The position numbers were made by a program, and so were the translations under genes. A DNA stretch of 64,000 nt from Hyphomicrobiales bacterium (GTDB lineage Bacteria > Pseudomonadota > Alphaproteobacteria > Rhizobiales > Rhizobiaceae): NCBI GenBank assembly GCA_900471515.1, contig UCFC01000051.1, forward strand, positions 1-64,000, read 5' to 3'. Below, in pieces: positions 8,535 through 15,686 of the stretch. Position 1 is the stretch's first letter. The number at the start of each line of letters is the position of its first letter. The notes under the pieces were generated by a model, which searched no databases, was not told where the DNA came from, and saw only the letters and a program-made list of their open reading frames with translations.

Positions 8535-9494
8535 ATGCAACAGATTGACGGTCTCAACGGGCGCGTTGCCGATGCGCCCTCGGATAATTGGGTTTATCGC
8601 ATCCTGCCGCCCTGGTTGTGGCCCTATGCGCAGCTGGCGCGCTGGGACAGGCCGGTCGGCTGGCAGCTGCTCATGTGGCCGTGCTTCTGGTCGGCCGCGC
8701 TTGCCGCCAATGCGGCGATCGAGCCGCGCGTCTTTTCCGGCGCCCTTCTGCTCTACCATCTGTTCCTGTATTTCATCGGCGCCGTGGCCATGCGCGGCGC
8801 CGGCTGCACCTATAACGACCTTGTCGACCACGAGATCGACATGCAGGTGGCGCGCACCCGCTCTCGCCCGCTGCCTTCCGCGCGTGTGACGCGCCGGCAG
8901 GCGAAGATATTCATTGGCCTGCAGGTGCTGGTCGGCCTGTTCGTACTCTTGCAGTTCAACTGGTTTGCCGTGATTCTCGGCGTGCTGTCGCTCGGCATCG
9001 TCGCCCTCTATCCCTTCGCCAAGCGGTTTACCGACTGGCCGCAATTCTTCCTCGGCCTTGCCTTCTCCTGGGGCGCATTGATGGGCTGGGCCGGCATATT
9101 CGGCAGCCTGTCCTTTTCCGCGGTCCTGCTCTATTTCGCGTCGGTCGTCTGGACGATCGGTTACGACACGATCTATGCCCATCAGGACAAGGAGGATGAC
9201 GAGCTGATCGGCGTCCGTTCCACCGCGCGCCTCTTCGGCGAGCGCACGCGCATGGCGCTTGTCGGCCTTTACGGGCTCACTCTCCTGTTGATGTTCCTGT
9301 CTTTCGCCTTTGCCGGCGTCGGGCTTCTCGCCTATGTCGGCCTGCTGATTGCGGCCGGCATGTTCGCCTGGCAGATCAGAACGCTCGATATCGACGACGG
9401 CGCCCAGTGCCTCGCGCTCTTCAAGTCGAACACCCGTGTCGGGCTGATCGTCTTTCTCGGCCTGTTCGTCTCGCTGCTTTTCGCCATTCCCTGA
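8535..9494 (+). CDS. ubiA: 4-hydroxybenzoate polyprenyltransferase
   Basis: An integral membrane prenyltransferase that joins a polyprenyl chain to 4-hydroxybenzoate in ubiquinone synthesis. The 319 residues contain both aspartate-rich substrate motifs of the UbiA family: NDLVDHEIDMQVARTRSRPL (about 96-115) and DKEDDELIGVRSTA (about 219-232). Seven to nine hydrophobic helices are visible. Length and motif spacing are typical. The ATG at 8535 lies 68 bases after the upstream stop. A strong bidirectional hairpin at 9506-9529 separates it from the convergent DUF6101 gene. Confidence 0.95.
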   Translation: MQQIDGLNGRVADAPSDNWVYRILPPWLWPYAQLARWDRPVGWQLLMWPCFWSAALAANAAIEPRVFSGALLLYHLFLYFIGAVAMRGAGCTYNDLVDHEIDMQVARTRSRPLPSARVTRRQAKIFIGLQVLVGLFVLLQFNWFAVILGVLSLGIVALYPFAKRFTDWPQFFLGLAFSWGALMGWAGIFGSLSFSAVLLYFASVVWTIGYDTIYAHQDKEDDELIGVRSTARLFGERTRMALVGLYGLTLLLMFLSFAFAGVGLLAYVGLLIAAGMFAWQIRTLDIDDGAQCLALFKSNTRVGLIVFLGLFVSLLFAIP

Positions 9495-9553: not shown

Positions 9554-10120
9554 TCAGTTGCGGGCGATGATTTCCTTGCCCTCGATCTTCATGATGACGC
9601 CGAGCTTGCCGGTGGTGCGGCGCACGAGGAAGCGCGGGCGCCGGTTGGCGAAATAGGAGTGGCGCCGGCGCGGCTTCATGTCGCCGGTGCGCAGCCCGCC
9701 GATATGTTCTTCCAGCGGGCGGGCGATGCCGTCGGCTTCCACCATCAGCATGGGGATGCCGTAGGCCTCCGACCAGCTGCGCCAGTCGGCGGCGATATCG
9801 CCGAGATCGTGGGCCACCAGCAGCGGAATGCAGAGTTCCGGATCTTCGTGATGCAGTTCGAGCGTGACGGTGACTTCGCCGTTGCCGTGGTCGATGGCGC
9901 GGGCGGCAACGCCCTTGAAGACACGCCGCGGCAGGGCGATGGAGAGCGGCAGGCCGCTGGAGGGGAGAATCTTGCGCAGGACCGCGCCGCGTTCGTCGAT
10001 CGTTATGCTGACGTCACCGGCATGGTCGTGGATGGCATAGCTTACCTGCTGCGGAAAGCGAGACGGATCAAGACGCAATGTCGTGCCAGCCCAGACGGGC
10101 TTCAGAACGGTATTCTTCAT
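9554..10120 (-). CDS. DUF6101 family protein
   Basis: A 188-residue soluble protein that I recognise as DUF6101, a family of unknown function found mainly in rhizobia and relatives. It starts MKNTVLKPVWAG and has a basic C-terminal third (MKPRRRHSYFANRRPRFLVRR). No catalytic motif, signal peptide or membrane segment is evident. The basic tail could contact nucleic acid, but that is only a guess. The gene is divergent from the DUF1217 gene, with 301 bases between them, and convergent with ubiA. Codon use matches the neighbours. Confidence 0.75.
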   Translation of the reverse strand: MKNTVLKPVWAGTTLRLDPSRFPQQVSYAIHDHAGDVSITIDERGAVLRKILPSSGLPLSIALPRRVFKGVAARAIDHGNGEVTVTLELHHEDPELCIPLLVAHDLGDIAADWRSWSEAYGIPMLMVEADGIARPLEEHIGGLRTGDMKPRRRHSYFANRRPRFLVRRTTGKLGVIMKIEGKEIIARN

Positions 10121-10421
10121 TTCATTTCTACCCTTGTCTTACCTGAGAGCCGGTTTCCGGTCTTCTCCTTGGGACTTTTCGTCCTCTATGGCCCGACAAT
10201 AGGCGGCCCCCGTTCCGTACAGCTTAAAAATCGCGGTTAAGAAAATCCTGCCTCCGGGGATGGTTAGCAAAAACGAATATGGCAGGGTTTCCGGAATGTG
10301 AACGCGGCCCCGCATCAAGGCGGGACAGTTTCAGGCAAGTCTCGGGCAAGCTCTGCCTGGCAAAATGCACGCACCAATAGTCTGTCAATTCCTTAAAGAC
10401 TTTGCTGAAAAGGGCGCATCC
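10121..10421. other. divergent intergenic region, DUF6101 / DUF1217 genes
   Basis: This 301-base gap must hold both divergent promoters. It is less GC-rich near 10220-10290. I see no convincing dyad, riboswitch or small ORF. A TGGCA...GC pattern near 10358 resembles a sigma-54 element only weakly. The plus-strand gene has an AAGGG ribosome site directly before 10422. Confidence 0.4.
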
Positions 10422-13400
10422 ATGATTACGGCATCCCTGGCATACGTCATTCTGTCCCGCGATATGCCAAAGAGTCTCGACCGCGTCGCCAACCAGGCGC
10501 AGGTCAAAAAAGACGCCGAATACTACGCAGAGAACATCAACAAGGTGAAGGATCTCGACGACTTTCTCGGCGATTACAAGCTCTACAGCTACGCCATGAA
10601 AGCCTACGGCCTTGACGACATGATCTATGCCAAGGCCTTCATGAAGAAGGTTCTGGAGAGCGACCTCACGGATGCGAACAGCTTCGCCAACAAGCTTTCC
10701 GATACGCGCTACAGGGAATTCGCCGCCGCCTTCAATTTCAATGCGCCGCCCAAGGATGTTCAGACGGACGAGCAGGAAGACGATCTGATCGGCCTCTACA
10801 AGCAGTCCTTCGCCGATACGGAAAAGCAGACGGCCGCCGAAACGGACTATTACAGTGCCCAGATCGACGACGCGAAGACCGTGCAGGACCTGGTCGGCAA
10901 TCCCCGTCTTCTGAACTATGCGCTGAAGAGCGTCGGCATCGACCCGACCTATATGTCGAAGGACTACATTACCGAGGTCCTGACCACGGATATCAGCACG
11001 CTGGGCGGCACGGCGCCCGACCCGACCGATCCGTCCTTCGATCCGACCAAGACCTATGTCGGCAACAAGCTCTACGCGCTCGCGCAGCAGTTCAACTTCA
11101 AGCCGGACAATGGCGACGCCCAGTATTTCCGCGACAATATCGGTTCGGTACAGTCGGTCGACGATCTTCTTGCCGATCCGCGCCTGCGCACGGTGGTGCT
11201 GCAATCCGTCGGCATCGATCCGGCGACGGCCGACGACGCCTTCGTCAAGATGGTCCTGACCAGCGACCCAGCGACGCTCGGCGGCGATCCGCCGATCAGC
11301 AATCCCGATCCGTCGCTCAATTATGTCGGAAGCAAATACAAGGAACTGGCGTCCTATTTCGATTTCAACGCCGACGGATCGGTCAACAGTGCCGCCCAGA
11401 ACGCAGCCCAGACCGACGAGGTTGCCGAACTCTACCGGTTCCGCGCCCCGGCCGTCGGCGGTTCTGCTCAGACCGCGGCACAGAAAAACTACGTGATGGA
11501 GCAGTATAACATCAATACTGCGATCCAGATCGTCGATCGCCTCGGAACGGGCAGCGACGTCTACTACGTCAGCCAGGCGATGTCCGAATTCAACAGGACC
11601 TATTACCTGTCCAAGATCGGTTCGATCACCAATGTCGACCAGCTGGTCAACGACAAACGGCTTGCCGATTATGTTCGCGCCGCCTTCGGCATGGATCCGG
11701 GCTTCACGCAGCTGCGCAACGTCCTGACCGACCCCGGTTATGCCCGCTCGGTCGATATGGGCGCGGCTTGGGAGGCGTTCAATTTCAGGTCCGACGGCAC
11801 GGTTTCTCCGAACGAGCGCGCGCAGTCCTACGAACAGCTGGGCGGCATGACGAGCGCTGCGTCGAACGTATCGAGCTATTTCTCCAACATGATGATGCCG
11901 CCCGGCGGCACCAGCCCGATCGACAGCGTCGACGAACTGCTGTCCGACAAGATGCTGACGGCCTATATCAAGGACGCCTACGGCCTCGGTCAGGATTTCA
12001 GCAATGCCGAATTGAGGAACATCCTTACGGACCCCGACTATGCCACAAACGCTGGCCACCTGGATATCCACGATGCCTTCAATTTCAACGCCGACGGTTC
12101 GGTGACGTTCGAGACGCTGCCGACCGGTGTCGTCGTCGGCGCACAGAACGCGACGCAGCTTCAGGGCATCAACCTGCTCGTCACCAACAATGCCTCCTAT
12201 TATCACGTCAAGCTTGCCGATCTCACCAACGACGGCGCGACCCCGGCGGTCGATGTGCTTCTTGCCGACGACAGGGCGATGAGTTTCCTGCGCACCAGCC
12301 TGCAGATCGGCAACGAAATCAGCGACGCCACGCTTCGCGGCATCCTGACCGATCCCGCCGTCGCCGCTTCCGAGGGCTACAGCGACGTCTACCAGCTTTT
12401 CAATTTCCGTCAGGACGGCACGCTTGCTGCCAATACCGTTTCGCAGGACGCCGGGCAGACCGCCGCGATGAACGCGAAAGTGGAAGCGGCCGCCAACTAC
12501 TATGTCACGACGATCAACGGGCTCACCGACGTCGACCAGGTGTTGGGCGACCAGAAGCTCAACAGCTACATCCGTTATGCCTTCAGCATCCCTTCGAGCG
12601 TTTCGGATGCCGATCTGCGCAACATCCTTGTCGATCACAGCGGCACCGGCCCCTATGCCAAGGTGGCGGCGGCTTTCAACTTCCAGGCGGACGGCACGGT
12701 CGTCCCCGGCCTTACGGTGCACAGCCCCGCGCAGCTGGCTTCCGTGAATTCGGCCACCACCATCCGCGAGGAAGGCATTCTGGACCGGATGGGCGACATC
12801 AACGATGTCGATCAGCTGCTGGCCGATACGTCCCTGACGGATTACCTGAAGATGGCCTACGGCCTGGCTTACGACACGACCGATGCCGAGCTCCGGAATA
12901 TCCTTACCGACCCGGCCCATGCCGCTTCCGTCGGTCAGAGCGAGCTCAACGCCGCCTTCAATTTCGCCGCCGACGGATCGCTGCCGACGCTGACGACCGC
13001 CCAGACCGGTGAACAGACGATGACGACCGGCGACAATTACGGCGCCCGCGTCAACGACCAGGGCAATGATCTCATCGATCGCATCATCGCGAACTACAAG
13101 ACGCGAATGGATGACGACAATTCCGCTGGCGTGAAGAGCGTCAACGATTTCATGAAAACCAACGACAGGGCCGATACCGTCCTCGGTAACGACTCCTATC
13201 CGGATCTCTACCAGATGACGCTGCAGGCTTACGGCCTGACGACGGCCGACGTTCCGCGCTCCATGATGCGCAAGCTGCTCGCCAGCGATCCCTACGACCC
13301 GAACGGATATGTCGCCTCCTTCAAGGACGACCGCATCACCAAGATGGTGCGCGCCTTCAACTTCGGTCCCGATGGCAAGGCTGCCCAGCCCATGTCGGTC

Positions 13401-14177
13401 CTGTCCGCCGCCACCATGGCGAAATATGCGACCGATTACAGGGCGCAGGTGACGATGCTGATGAAGGACGGCCCCGCGAAGGACCGCGCCGCCAAGGCTG
13501 CCACCGAGGAGGTCGACTATTTCGGCAAGACCATTCCCGGTATCAACTCCCTCGACGATTTCCTGGCCGACAAGCGTCTGACGGATCTCATGCTGAAGGC
13601 AAACGGCTTCGATCCGAAGGAATACGACAAGGATACGCTGAAGAAAATCTTCACGTCCGATCCCGACGACAAGAAGAGCTACCTCAACACCAAGGCGGAC
13701 GAGCGCTTCAAGGAGATCGTCGGCTCCTTCAACTTCGACAAGGACGGCAACCTGACCCGCGCCAAGATGGGCACGATCCAGGACAAGCAGGCCGAAGCGA
13801 CGACGCAGCAGCAATATGTGCAGCTGACCCTGGAAACCCAGGAGGGCGAAACCAATGACGGCGTGCGTCTGGCGCTCTACTTCAAGCGCAAGGCGACGGA
13901 CATTACCTCGCTCTACCAGATCCTCGGCGACAAGGCGCTCTATCAGGTCATCCAGACGACCTACAGCCTGCCGCAGCAGATATCTGCGATGGACGTGGAA
14001 AAGCAGGTCGACCTGCTCGGCCGCTTCGTGAAGCTCGAAGACCTGCACGACCCCAAGAAGGTCGACAAGCTCATCAGGCGCTTCACGGCCATGTACGACA
14101 TCCAGAACAATACCCAGCAGTCGCCGGCGCTGCAGATCCTGACCGGCGGCACTGGCCAGGCGACATCGCTGCTTTGA
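10422..14177 (+). CDS. giant tandem-repeat DUF1217 protein
   Basis: A 1251-residue protein made almost entirely of about eleven diverged units of roughly 90-140 residues. Each unit reads: Tyr-rich helix (e.g. EYYAENINKVKDLDDFLGD), a leucine/alanine helix ending in YGL or VGI, a segment such as LRNILTDP, then FNFxxDG. The last motif recurs near residues 104, 224, 313, 453, 553, 660, 752, 846, 979 and 1103. The first unit (KSLDRVANQAQVKKDAEYY, AKAFMKKVLESD) matches DUF1217, a rhizobial family that usually appears as short proteins next to flagellar genes. No signal peptide or membrane helix is seen. The ATG at 10422 follows AAGGG; an earlier in-frame codon is less likely. No flagellar gene is nearby. 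Function unknown; an exported or structural role is my inference. Confidence 0.8.
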   Translation: MITASLAYVILSRDMPKSLDRVANQAQVKKDAEYYAENINKVKDLDDFLGDYKLYSYAMKAYGLDDMIYAKAFMKKVLESDLTDANSFANKLSDTRYREFAAAFNFNAPPKDVQTDEQEDDLIGLYKQSFADTEKQTAAETDYYSAQIDDAKTVQDLVGNPRLLNYALKSVGIDPTYMSKDYITEVLTTDISTLGGTAPDPTDPSFDPTKTYVGNKLYALAQQFNFKPDNGDAQYFRDNIGSVQSVDDLLADPRLRTVVLQSVGIDPATADDAFVKMVLTSDPATLGGDPPISNPDPSLNYVGSKYKELASYFDFNADGSVNSAAQNAAQTDEVAELYRFRAPAVGGSAQTAAQKNYVMEQYNINTAIQIVDRLGTGSDVYYVSQAMSEFNRTYYLSKIGSITNVDQLVNDKRLADYVRAAFGMDPGFTQLRNVLTDPGYARSVDMGAAWEAFNFRSDGTVSPNERAQSYEQLGGMTSAASNVSSYFSNMMMPPGGTSPIDSVDELLSDKMLTAYIKDAYGLGQDFSNAELRNILTDPDYATNAGHLDIHDAFNFNADGSVTFETLPTGVVVGAQNATQLQGINLLVTNNASYYHVKLADLTNDGATPAVDVLLADDRAMSFLRTSLQIGNEISDATLRGILTDPAVAASEGYSDVYQLFNFRQDGTLAANTVSQDAGQTAAMNAKVEAAANYYVTTINGLTDVDQVLGDQKLNSYIRYAFSIPSSVSDADLRNILVDHSGTGPYAKVAAAFNFQADGTVVPGLTVHSPAQLASVNSATTIREEGILDRMGDINDVDQLLADTSLTDYLKMAYGLAYDTTDAELRNILTDPAHAASVGQSELNAAFNFAADGSLPTLTTAQTGEQTMTTGDNYGARVNDQGNDLIDRIIANYKTRMDDDNSAGVKSVNDFMKTNDRADTVLGNDSYPDLYQMTLQAYGLTTADVPRSMMRKLLASDPYDPNGYVASFKDDRITKMVRAFNFGPDGKAAQPMSVLSAATMAKYATDYRAQVTMLMKDGPAKDRAAKAATEEVDYFGKTIPGINSLDDFLADKRLTDLMLKANGFDPKEYDKDTLKKIFTSDPDDKKSYLNTKADERFKEIVGSFNFDKDGNLTRAKMGTIQDKQAEATTQQQYVQLTLETQEGETNDGVRLALYFKRKATDITSLYQILGDKALYQVIQTTYSLPQQISAMDVEKQVDLLGRFVKLEDLHDPKKVDKLIRRFTAMYDIQNNTQQSPALQILTGGTGQATSLL

Positions 14178-14255
14178 GCGACGGGGTGAACTTCCGGGGC
14201 CTTTCCGAAACGCGGACATGCTCCGGACGCAGGACCGCGTCTTGATGGAGACGCC

Positions 14256-15686
14256 TTAGAGGCTCACCACCTTGTCCGGGTTCATGATGCCGGCAGGGTC
14301 GAAGGCCCGCTTGATGCGGCGCATCAGTTCCATTTCGATCGCCGGCCGGATCGACGCCAGCTCGTCGCGCTTCAGCTGGCCGATGCCGTGCTCGGCGGAG
14401 ATCGAGCCGCCATGGGCCAGCACCAGCCCGTGCACGATATGGTTCATCTCGTGCCAGCGGGCGATGAAGGCTTCCTTGTCGGCGCCGACGGGCTGCGAGA
14501 TGTTGTAGTGGATGTTGCCGTCGCCCATATGGCCGAAGGCGCAGATGCGCGCGCCGGGCATTGCCGCCATGACGGCCTCTTCGGCTTCCCTCATGAAATG
14601 CGGGATCTTCGAAACCGGCACGGAAACGTCGTGCTTGATCGAGCCGCCCTCCGGCTTCTGCGCGTCGGACATGCTCTCGCGCATGTGCCAGAGCGCCTTC
14701 TGCTGGGCGACAGAGGAGGCGATGGCCGCATCCTGCACGAGGCCCGCTTCGAAACCCTGCTCCAGCACGGCATTCATCATCCGCTCGGCCGTTTCGGCGG
14801 AATCGGAGGTGGAAATGTCGATCAGCACATACCAGTCGTGCGGCGTCTCCAGGGGATCGCGCACGCCGTCTATATGGCGCGCGGTGATCTCGACGCCGAA
14901 ACGCGGCATCAGTTCGAAGCCGGTCAGCGACGTGCCGCAGAGGCTGGAGGCGAGGTTGAAGAAGGAAAGCGCATCCTCGACGGTGGAAAGCCCGGCAAAG
15001 GCCACCTGATGGCCGAGCGGCTGCGGAAAGAGCTTCAGCACCGCGCCGGTGATGATGCCGAGCGTGCCTTCGGCGCCGATGAAGAGATCGCGCAGGTCGT
15101 ATCCCGTATTGTCCTTCTTCAGCCGGCGCAGCCCGTCCCAGATCTCGCCGGTCGGCAGCACGACTTCGAGGCCGAGGCAGAGCTGGCGCATGTTGCCATA
15201 GGCCAGAACCGCCGTGCCGCCGGCATTGGTGGAGAGGTTTCCGCCGATGCGGCAGGAGCCTTCCGAGCCGAGCGACAGCGGAAACAGCCGCCCGTGCGCC
15301 TCGGCCGCCTTCTGCACGTCGGCAAGGATCGCCCCGCCGTCGGCGACCAGCACGTTGGCGACCGGATCGACGTCGCGGATCCGGTTCATGCGTTCGAGCG
15401 AAAGAATGATGTCCGCCTTGCCCTCGCGCGGCGTCTGCCCGCCGACAAGGCCGGTATTGCCGGTCTGCGGCACGATGGCCGTGCCGGTTTCGGTCGCGAG
15501 CTTCATGATCGCGGAGACGTCCTCGACCGTTCCGGGCTTGAGGAGGAGAGGGGAGGAACCGTGGTAGAGGCCGCGGTTTTCGATGAGGTGCGGCGCCAGA
15601 TCCGCCTCGCTGCGGAGCGCGTATTTCTCGCCGACGATGGCGGTGAAACGCTCGATGATCTCAGGCGAAATGCTTGTGCTGCTCAT
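14256..15686 (-). CDS. FAD-linked 2-hydroxyacid dehydrogenase (GlcD/D-LDH family)
   Basis: A 476-residue flavoprotein of the glycolate oxidase GlcD / D-lactate dehydrogenase family. It has an N-terminal PCMH FAD-binding domain (PQTGNTGLVGGQTP near 75; GGNLSTNAGGTAVLAYGN near 147) and the C-terminal FAD-oxidase domain with FGHMGDGNIHYN and HGGSISAEHGIGQLK. These last motifs coordinate substrate and metal in D-2-hydroxyglutarate and D-lactate dehydrogenases. The substrate cannot be fixed; D-2-hydroxyglutarate or D-lactate is most likely. AGAGGA precedes the ATG at 15686. The gene starts 18 bases after the TsaC-like gene ends and is probably co-transcribed with it. Confidence 0.88.
   Translation of the reverse strand: MSSTSISPEIIERFTAIVGEKYALRSEADLAPHLIENRGLYHGSSPLLLKPGTVEDVSAIMKLATETGTAIVPQTGNTGLVGGQTPREGKADIILSLERMNRIRDVDPVANVLVADGGAILADVQKAAEAHGRLFPLSLGSEGSCRIGGNLSTNAGGTAVLAYGNMRQLCLGLEVVLPTGEIWDGLRRLKKDNTGYDLRDLFIGAEGTLGIITGAVLKLFPQPLGHQVAFAGLSTVEDALSFFNLASSLCGTSLTGFELMPRFGVEITARHIDGVRDPLETPHDWYVLIDISTSDSAETAERMMNAVLEQGFEAGLVQDAAIASSVAQQKALWHMRESMSDAQKPEGGSIKHDVSVPVSKIPHFMREAEEAVMAAMPGARICAFGHMGDGNIHYNISQPVGADKEAFIARWHEMNHIVHGLVLAHGGSISAEHGIGQLKRDELASIRPAIEMELMRRIKRAFDPAGIMNPDKVVSL

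Follow-up and report, generated by a model that had tools for sequence, protein, structure and literature searches.

A giant eleven-unit DUF1217 protein of Rhizobiaceae and a possible filament-capping role for its flagellum-linked family

The window analysed in this work is a stretch of 64,000 nucleotides from a Hyphomicrobiales bacterium (GenBank assembly GCA_900471515.1, contig UCFC01000051.1, positions 1 to 64,000 of the forward strand), and it carries at 10422-14177 on the plus strand a DUF1217 gene whose product of 1251 residues (stop codon within these coordinates) is built of tandem units. What does such a protein do at a locus remote from flagellar genes? The initial annotation had argued from that distance to a non-flagellar filament, adhesin or scaffold, an argument countered by the findings that DUF1217 tracks FliF across genomes, that multi-unit forms occupy the motA-flgF slot of flagellar clusters in relatives, and that a paralogue in the window's own genome lies beside flgE-flgK-flgL and a flagellin gene. 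We propose that the giant is an exported filament-assembly protein, most likely a substitute for the FliD cap whose all-helical fold is unrelated to it, and we give this reading slightly better than even chances; the earlier suggestion of an exported, structural protein is judged plausible.

Repeat architecture of the giant protein

The ATG at 10422 was chosen as start codon in agreement with the relatives (AAAAGGG lies seven bases upstream); an alternative in-frame ATG is present at 10365. Membership in DUF1217 and the count of about eleven units, both proposed at the outset, were borne out. The protein matches Pfam DUF1217 (PF06748) at 8.9e-93 with 308.7 bits in six stretches (cut-off 22.9), the best of which covers parts of units 10 and 11, and it consists of ten full units and a degenerate eleventh at the C-terminus, starting at residues 34, 142, 234, 393, 485, 592, 692, 785, 890, 1032, and 1152. 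An F[ND]F..DG-type motif occurs nine times. In leave-one-out comparison, in which each unit was scored with a profile of the other ten, all 11 units were detected with 22.5-72.1 bits, and in each case none of 1000 shuffles of the unit scored as high. The gene and its units, the latter assigned in the unit tree described below, are as follows.

10422..14177, plus strand: giant DUF1217 gene, 11 units (open frame, Pfam, unit profiles)
10509..10844, plus strand: unit 1, conserved N-terminal unit, in the clade of unit 1 of two-unit flagellar DUF1217 proteins
10836..11123, plus strand: unit 2, grouping with unit 3, beside the second unit of a relative
11112..11510, plus strand: unit 3, grouping with unit 2, beside the second unit of a relative
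11589..11876, plus strand: unit 4, an expansion related to unit 3 of some relatives
11865..12167, plus strand: unit 5, same expansion as unit 4
12186..12497, plus strand: unit 6, same expansion as unit 4
12486..12776, plus strand: unit 7, same expansion as unit 4
12780..13079, plus strand: unit 8, same expansion as unit 4
13086..13475, plus strand: unit 9, grouping with unit 4 of six-unit proteins
13506..13859, plus strand: unit 10, grouping with the penultimate unit of other multi-unit members
13866..14165, plus strand: unit 11, degenerate C-terminal unit, in the clade of last units of other members

The unit tree (100 units from 18 chosen proteins, midpoint-rooted) places the 18 first units in one clade and the 18 last units in another, from two-unit through 11-unit forms. 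Between these ends, units 2 and 3 of the giant pair up beside the second unit of L052 (G and L numbers are our handles for genomes and loci), units 4-8 cluster next to the third unit of three relatives (in L020, next to units 3-4), unit 9 falls with unit 4 of several six-unit proteins, and unit 10 with their penultimate units. Because the end units fall in shared clades and the middle units in expansion groups, the giant most likely grew through multiplication of its middle units. Repeat number was surveyed in 80 proteins (74 usable from 79 named loci, plus six more; loci L028, L060, L064, L066, and L072 were left out of protein counts, their neighbour genes still being read). The unit-number classes are 2, 3, 5, 6, 7, and 11, some multi-unit counts depending on one weak unit (e.g. 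13 bits in L024), and each additional unit lengthens the protein by 109 residues (r 0.95). Three members of the window's genus (G187, G023, and G281) have 8, 10, and 10 units, and the giant is the extreme, among the members examined, of a family with a variable middle. A flagellar filament has 11 protofilaments; the idea of one unit per protofilament was set aside, given 8, 10, 10, and 11 units within the genus and 2-11 in the family. Loss of the C-terminal tail found in most other DUF1217 members, which the window protein also lacks, marks the giant clade (L010-L019, L111-L113). Large forms also occur outside the window's order, as tandem DUF1217 frames of 973 and 981 codons (G455:C1:63644-67004).

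The AlphaFold model of residues 34-1233 (alignment of the window protein and 21 relatives) has a mean predicted local confidence (pLDDT) of 75.6, lower in units 2-3, and a predicted template-modelling score (pTM) of 0.56. Instead of one non-repetitive domain, it contains a small similar helical unit that recurs along the chain between long helices. The two-unit relative L071 is modelled as all-helical (pLDDT 83.4) and superimposes on the solved structure 2o8s_A with Z 29.3 and a root-mean-square deviation of 1.6 over 220 residues; no fold relative beyond 2O8S was found for it, all other rows having Z 3.5 or less. (L071 is a Bradyrhizobium-type flagellar locus, although its record bears the name Frankia sp. 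RB7, which probably reflects misnaming or contamination.) 2O8S (AGR_C_984 of Agrobacterium, from structural genomics) shares both sequence family and fold with the giant (phmmer 1e-55 against the window protein; Foldseek 1.4e-6 with the window model, the sole match below 0.001). It differs in having two units against eleven, and the giant lacks the C-terminal tail and does not lie in the motA-flgF slot. The title of 2O8S states no function, and a literature search found none.

An antisense open frame of 1331 codons (10224-14219, minus strand) spans the whole giant gene; codon-position GC content favours the plus strand, and the antisense frame is probably a by-product. PtuB, Int_EF-hand, and RE_NgoFVII, considered as domains of the window protein from NCBIfam and weak Pfam matches, all fell below cut-off and were rejected.

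Linkage of DUF1217 genes to the flagellum

For the genome surveys, the window's family (f1) was taken as Rhizobiaceae and its order as Hyphomicrobiales, from the window's named relatives. Among 151 genomes of the family, 122 have both DUF1217 and FliF_C, two have FliF only (G349 and G375), one has DUF1217 only (G360), and 26 have neither (Fisher 9e-26, kinship ignored). Among the matches listed, in which weak short copies may be hidden in a few genomes, 26 of the 123 DUF1217-positive family genomes have only frames of at least 700 codons, and all 26 are FliF-positive (by eye). FliF is also found in 78 of the 79 DUF1217-positive genomes of the order, the exception being 82% complete, and in 21/21 of those in the class sample. 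The converse fails beyond the family, where 139 FliF-positive genomes of the order gave no DUF1217 match. The presence independent of flagellar genes that would be expected of an adhesin was thus not found, and a flagellar role of the DUF1217 family is near certain.

Gene order points the same way. Of the two- and three-unit loci counted, 22 of 25 adjoin flgF in the flagellar cluster; the remaining three are Microvirga L059 and L063, beside flagellins, and L087, which has no marker. In relatives, the DUF1217 genes found in the motA-[DUF1217]-flgF slot encode 2, 3, 5, or 6 units: in genus g2 it contains three units (G069, G136, and G209) or five (G105, G229, G248, and G265), and in G090, from another family of the order, a six-unit gene. 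In the flagellar cluster of the window's genome (L103) the motA match ends at 13519 and flgF starts at 13769 with no DUF1217 between them, so that the slot is empty. The second DUF1217 gene of this genome encodes six units (729 residues) and lies beside an extra flgE-flgK-flgL set and flagellin; the whole set occupies L009 3735-12142 (contig C57), apart from the main flagellar cluster. Similar associations of flgE-flgK-flgL with a nearby DUF1217 gene exist on a Rhizobium johnstonii plasmid and on R. etli p42f (where flgK is unannotated and matches in two pieces), no flagellin being annotated in either stretch.

The 11-unit genes occupy a different place. All ten other 11-unit loci lie, as in the window, between ubiA-DUF6101 and an FAD-binding oxidoreductase gene. 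The conserved neighbours in the window are listed below.

8535..9494, plus strand: UbiA-like 4-hydroxybenzoate octaprenyltransferase, conserved neighbour, outside the function
9554..10120, minus strand: DUF6101 family protein, conserved neighbour
14256..15686, minus strand: FAD-binding oxidoreductase, conserved neighbour

In three genomes with one FliF match each, the giant at the ubiA locus accounts for the DUF1217 matches: 5/5 in G281, five of six in G023 (the sixth being a fragment), and all four among those listed, of five, in G187. Sinorhizobium meliloti has a six-unit gene (769 aa) in the neighbourhood ubiA-DUF6101-[X]-FADox-TsaC, and a two-unit copy is retained in its motA-flgF slot. 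Loci L100 and L102 come from CP090106.1, a 3.7-Mb record of S. meliloti Ak57 titled pSymB which has ubiA, purD, and a whole flagellar region and looks like the chromosome. We take the two-unit copy to be SMc03023, described among flagellar-region genes of unknown function that are raised on surfaces, and the six-unit protein, from its published description, to be SMc00986. SMc00986 was published with six such domains, written 'DUF2117', and was strongly reduced without Hfq, with control by RirA and CbrA and accumulation without TolC also reported (PMC3484140), so that 'undescribed' was too strong a word for this kind of protein. SMc00986 resembles the giant in its multiple units and its gene neighbourhood, and differs in having six units, not eleven, in an organism that also has the motA-flgF copy.

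DUF1217 was also found in rhizobia, Bradyrhizobium, Methylobacterium, and Azospirillum. On four Rhodobacterales plasmids it follows flaF-flbT, with flagellin genes upstream in three; the order is flagellin-flaF-flbT-hypothetical-DUF1217 in Azospirillum, and in Methylobacterium-like clusters DUF1217 comes first in DUF1217-flgF-fliI-flgE-flgK-flgL-flaF-flbT. In Microvirga the gene lies beside flagellin genes in 4/6 loci (L045 with six units, L059 and L063 with two each, and L060, whose units were not counted), in the motA-flgF slot in L064, and with no marker in L051. In print, DUF1217 has been named as an unknown protein of the Brucella flagellar locus and as a Liberibacter protein 'similar to FlgF'.

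A domain shared with flagellin and the relation to FliD

Two Methylobacterium-like proteins, of 967 residues in L087 and from a frame of 1131 residues in G218 (L121), retain unit 1 and the last unit, and these flank four and five tandem domains, respectively, of about 165 residues each. When 119 genomes of that family were scanned with A3, a profile of eight of these middle domains, five proteins in 3/119 genomes matched at 1e-4. Two are DUF1217 proteins, in G218 (by construction) and in G196 (1.6e-40), and three have Pfam flagellin domains. One of the flagellin matches lies about 3 kb from the G196 DUF1217 gene (4.5e-14), a second is in G196 (1.6e-8), and the third is in G117 (2.3e-9), where the truncated stretch shows the N-terminal flagellin domain alone. 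Within this search, therefore, the middle of these DUF1217 proteins is a domain found otherwise only in flagellins. Among 3488 frames of the collected loci, A3 matched only its two source proteins. That flagellin and DUF1217 proteins have exchanged an outer domain speaks for a site of action of DUF1217 at the filament, beyond the cell surface. Export is likely. Assignment of the middle repeats to Flagellin_IN was not adopted: the scores are weak (24.1 and 20.6 bits, cut-off 22.7, with E 0.0028 for the best repeat taken singly; hhalign gave probability 50 and p 1.6e-4, where an unrelated alignment gave p 0.72), and the direct A3 search is the stronger result. No PDB chain matched the repeats below E 0.1. 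In the opposite direction, a DUF1217 unit profile gave 138 matches among 9224 frames; the 25 weakest were all at known DUF1217 genes, and none of these 25 pointed to the unit in a hook, junction, or flagellin protein.

The filament position for which no known protein is at hand in these bacteria is the tip. The absence of FliD (HAP2, hook-associated protein 2) has been reported for Rhizobiaceae (PMC6913195), Brucella (PMC7410920), and Phaeobacter inhibens (PMC12363192), while the review PMC8781033, contrary to the reported absence, names a Brucella gene as FliD. Neither FliD_N nor FliD_C was found in the window protein in a Pfam scan to E = 10, the best FliD_N match in the window's genome (0.73) is below cut-off, and FliD_C is found in none of the 13 members of the window's family within the order sample. 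With FliD scored as present at E <= 0.001 (Pfam's own cut-off being passed by 28/31 in the order and 43/45 in the class), FliD_C occurs in 31/297 genomes of the order. FliD and DUF1217 occur together in 15, of which 14 show two FliF matches; split genes may account for some of the genomes with two FliF matches (those in G224 and G262 are weak or partial-looking). Among the 194 genomes of the order with one FliF, one has both, 55 have DUF1217 only, 16 have FliD only, and 122 have neither. A test for mutual exclusion of the two gives a modest result for the order (p 0.027) and a stronger one for the class sample (p 0.0007), kinship again being ignored. In the four two-system genomes G175, G253, G223, and G239, DUF1217 belongs to the rhizobial-type cluster and FliD accompanies the other set of hook/junction genes (4/4); the FliD-linked flgE and flgK match the rhizobial ones weakly, and the identity of FliD is Pfam-confirmed in three of the four. 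An Azospirillum cluster FlgK-FlgL-FliD-FliS-FliC2 has been described (PMC12826043).

The proposed cap role and its competitors

The phenotype closest to the question comes from P. inhibens, whose fla1 flagellum was described with four essential proteins, CP1-4 (CP1 being PGA1_c23640); the same paper places CP1 of Cereibacter sphaeroides in a fliC-flaF-flbT-CP1 cluster on a 124-kb plasmid (PMC12363192). Because the order on the C. sphaeroides 2.4.1 plasmid NZ_CP030273.1 (124,316 bp) is flagellin-flaF-flbT-DUF1217, and the 262-residue product matches PF06748 at 1.5e-38, CP1 is a DUF1217 protein, assuming the published orthology. The main text of PMC12363192 has no word beginning 'DUF', and the paper confines CP1-4 to Rhodobacterales, whereas the DUF1217 family is wider here; C. 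sphaeroides CP1 is also a short protein by comparison with the giant. In the CP1 mutant most flagellar proteins of the wild type and the motB mutant, including FliC, were still released, and no flagella were detected (PMC12363192). Exported flagellin without flagella is what one would expect if a cap or junction protein were lost.

We propose that DUF1217 proteins most likely pass through the flagellar export channel and act outside the cell, where flagellin joins the filament, in the place of the FliD cap. The two conserved end units would do the common job, and the middle would form a variable outer part, made in rhizobia from further copies of the DUF1217 unit (for a total of 2 to 11) and in Methylobacterium-like bacteria from an outer domain of flagellin. 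In the window's genome, where the flagellar-cluster copy is missing, the giant would supply the function from its distant locus, sharing it with the six-unit paralogue beside the second hook/junction gene set. As a single mechanism the cap role is the best candidate, with a probability of about even; we infer it, together with export, tip location, and its retention by the giant, from gene linkage, architecture, and the CP1 phenotype. In favour of the proposal, the giant has no cysteine in 1251 residues against about 9.8 expected (P 5.6e-5, expectation from 19 other chosen window genes), and 74/80 members are free of cysteine, a property unspecific for axial proteins in that FliF, FliN, and MotB of S. 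meliloti share it. The likeness to FliD lies in the proposed position, the homologue's mutant phenotype, and the flagellin-type domain in the middle of some members (with its weak Flagellin_IN match); the difference lies in the lack of FliD_N or FliD_C in the giant and in an all-helical model. No published proposal of a cap role for DUF1217 was found in literature mostly without subscription papers and bioRxiv preprints, and we know of no mutant of the giant.

Several observations weigh against this proposal. The fold-match lists of both the giant and L071 models contain no cap or hook-associated protein. CP1-4 were all undetected outside the cell in the P. inhibens exoproteome (the wild-type proteins named in PMC12363192 omit FlgL too), and the identification of CP1 comes from published synteny, not from the P. 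inhibens sequence. No flagellar neighbour was seen in the stretch read at the multi-unit loci L034, L051, L052, G112, G177, G236 (first copy), and G292, and the multi-unit genes in L030, L039, and L050 have only a rem-like match as neighbour marker. The short C-terminal segment (..SADTL..) of most members is absent, by eye, from the ten other 11-unit members and three genus relatives. The short S. meliloti DUF1217 protein is marginally nearer the cytosolic composition mean; the window, C57, and large S. meliloti proteins are slightly nearer the axial mean, with no clear separation from cytosolic flagellar proteins. Finally, since both DUF1217 and FliD_C are lacking in 122 of the order's 194 genomes with one FliF, and in 50 of the 110 FliF-positive genomes of the class sample, FliD absence does not demand DUF1217, and either some FliD proteins escape the profile or there must be further solutions; DUF1217 as a simple replacement of FliD everywhere is unsupported, and capping in those 122 is explained by neither.

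The strongest competitor, though an unlikely one, is that DUF1217 is a cytoplasmic export chaperone or assembly factor for FlgL/FlgK or flagellin, comparable to FlgN or FlaF, without which the junction protein would stay undelivered and exported flagellin could not polymerise. The gene order flaF-flbT-(hypothetical)-DUF1217, the all-helical model, and the absence of CP1 from the exoproteome fit such a role, which the authors of PMC12363192 also consider; a flagellin outer domain in the middle of some members, and growth to 11 units with conserved ends, are unlike a chaperone. Less probable again is an exported axial component other than the cap, at the junction or the filament surface between FlgL and flagellin. 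Mutants in hook-associated proteins export flagellin that remains unassembled, so that loss of a junction protein would give the same phenotype, and the accessory sets of flgE-flgK-flgL with DUF1217 agree with it; yet the FlgK and FlgL genes adjoin DUF1217 or share its cluster, so the junction is already supplied, and it is the tip that lacks a known protein. It is improbable that the ubiA-locus giant has left the flagellum for a surface scaffold, an adhesin, or envelope stress, with only the short and six-unit copies still flagellar: the remote locus, the lost C-terminal tail, and the strong Hfq dependence and reported RirA, CbrA, and TolC effects on its S. meliloti relative (PMC3484140) would suit it, but in two FliF-positive genomes of the genus a giant at the same locus is the sole DUF1217 gene seen (G281) or the sole complete one (G023), and multi-unit forms fill the flagellar motA-flgF slot in relatives. 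A non-flagellar adhesin or scaffold was rejected on the FliF co-occurrence and the slot evidence.

If the cap proposal is true, the giant would be a cap subunit with eleven tandem domains. We rate a little short of even the possibility that alphaproteobacterial flagella without FliD have their missing filament cap in DUF1217, which would be a second way of capping, with no structural kinship to the first and with an outer part open to exchange or multiplication. It would bear on how filaments of Rhizobiaceae, Brucella, and Phaeobacter are capped, FliD absence having been remarked separately for each, and the confinement of CP1 to Rhodobacterales would be corrected if the synteny identification holds. 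One family would then join an orphan domain with a solved structure (2O8S), the essential motility gene CP1, and the rhizobial giants.

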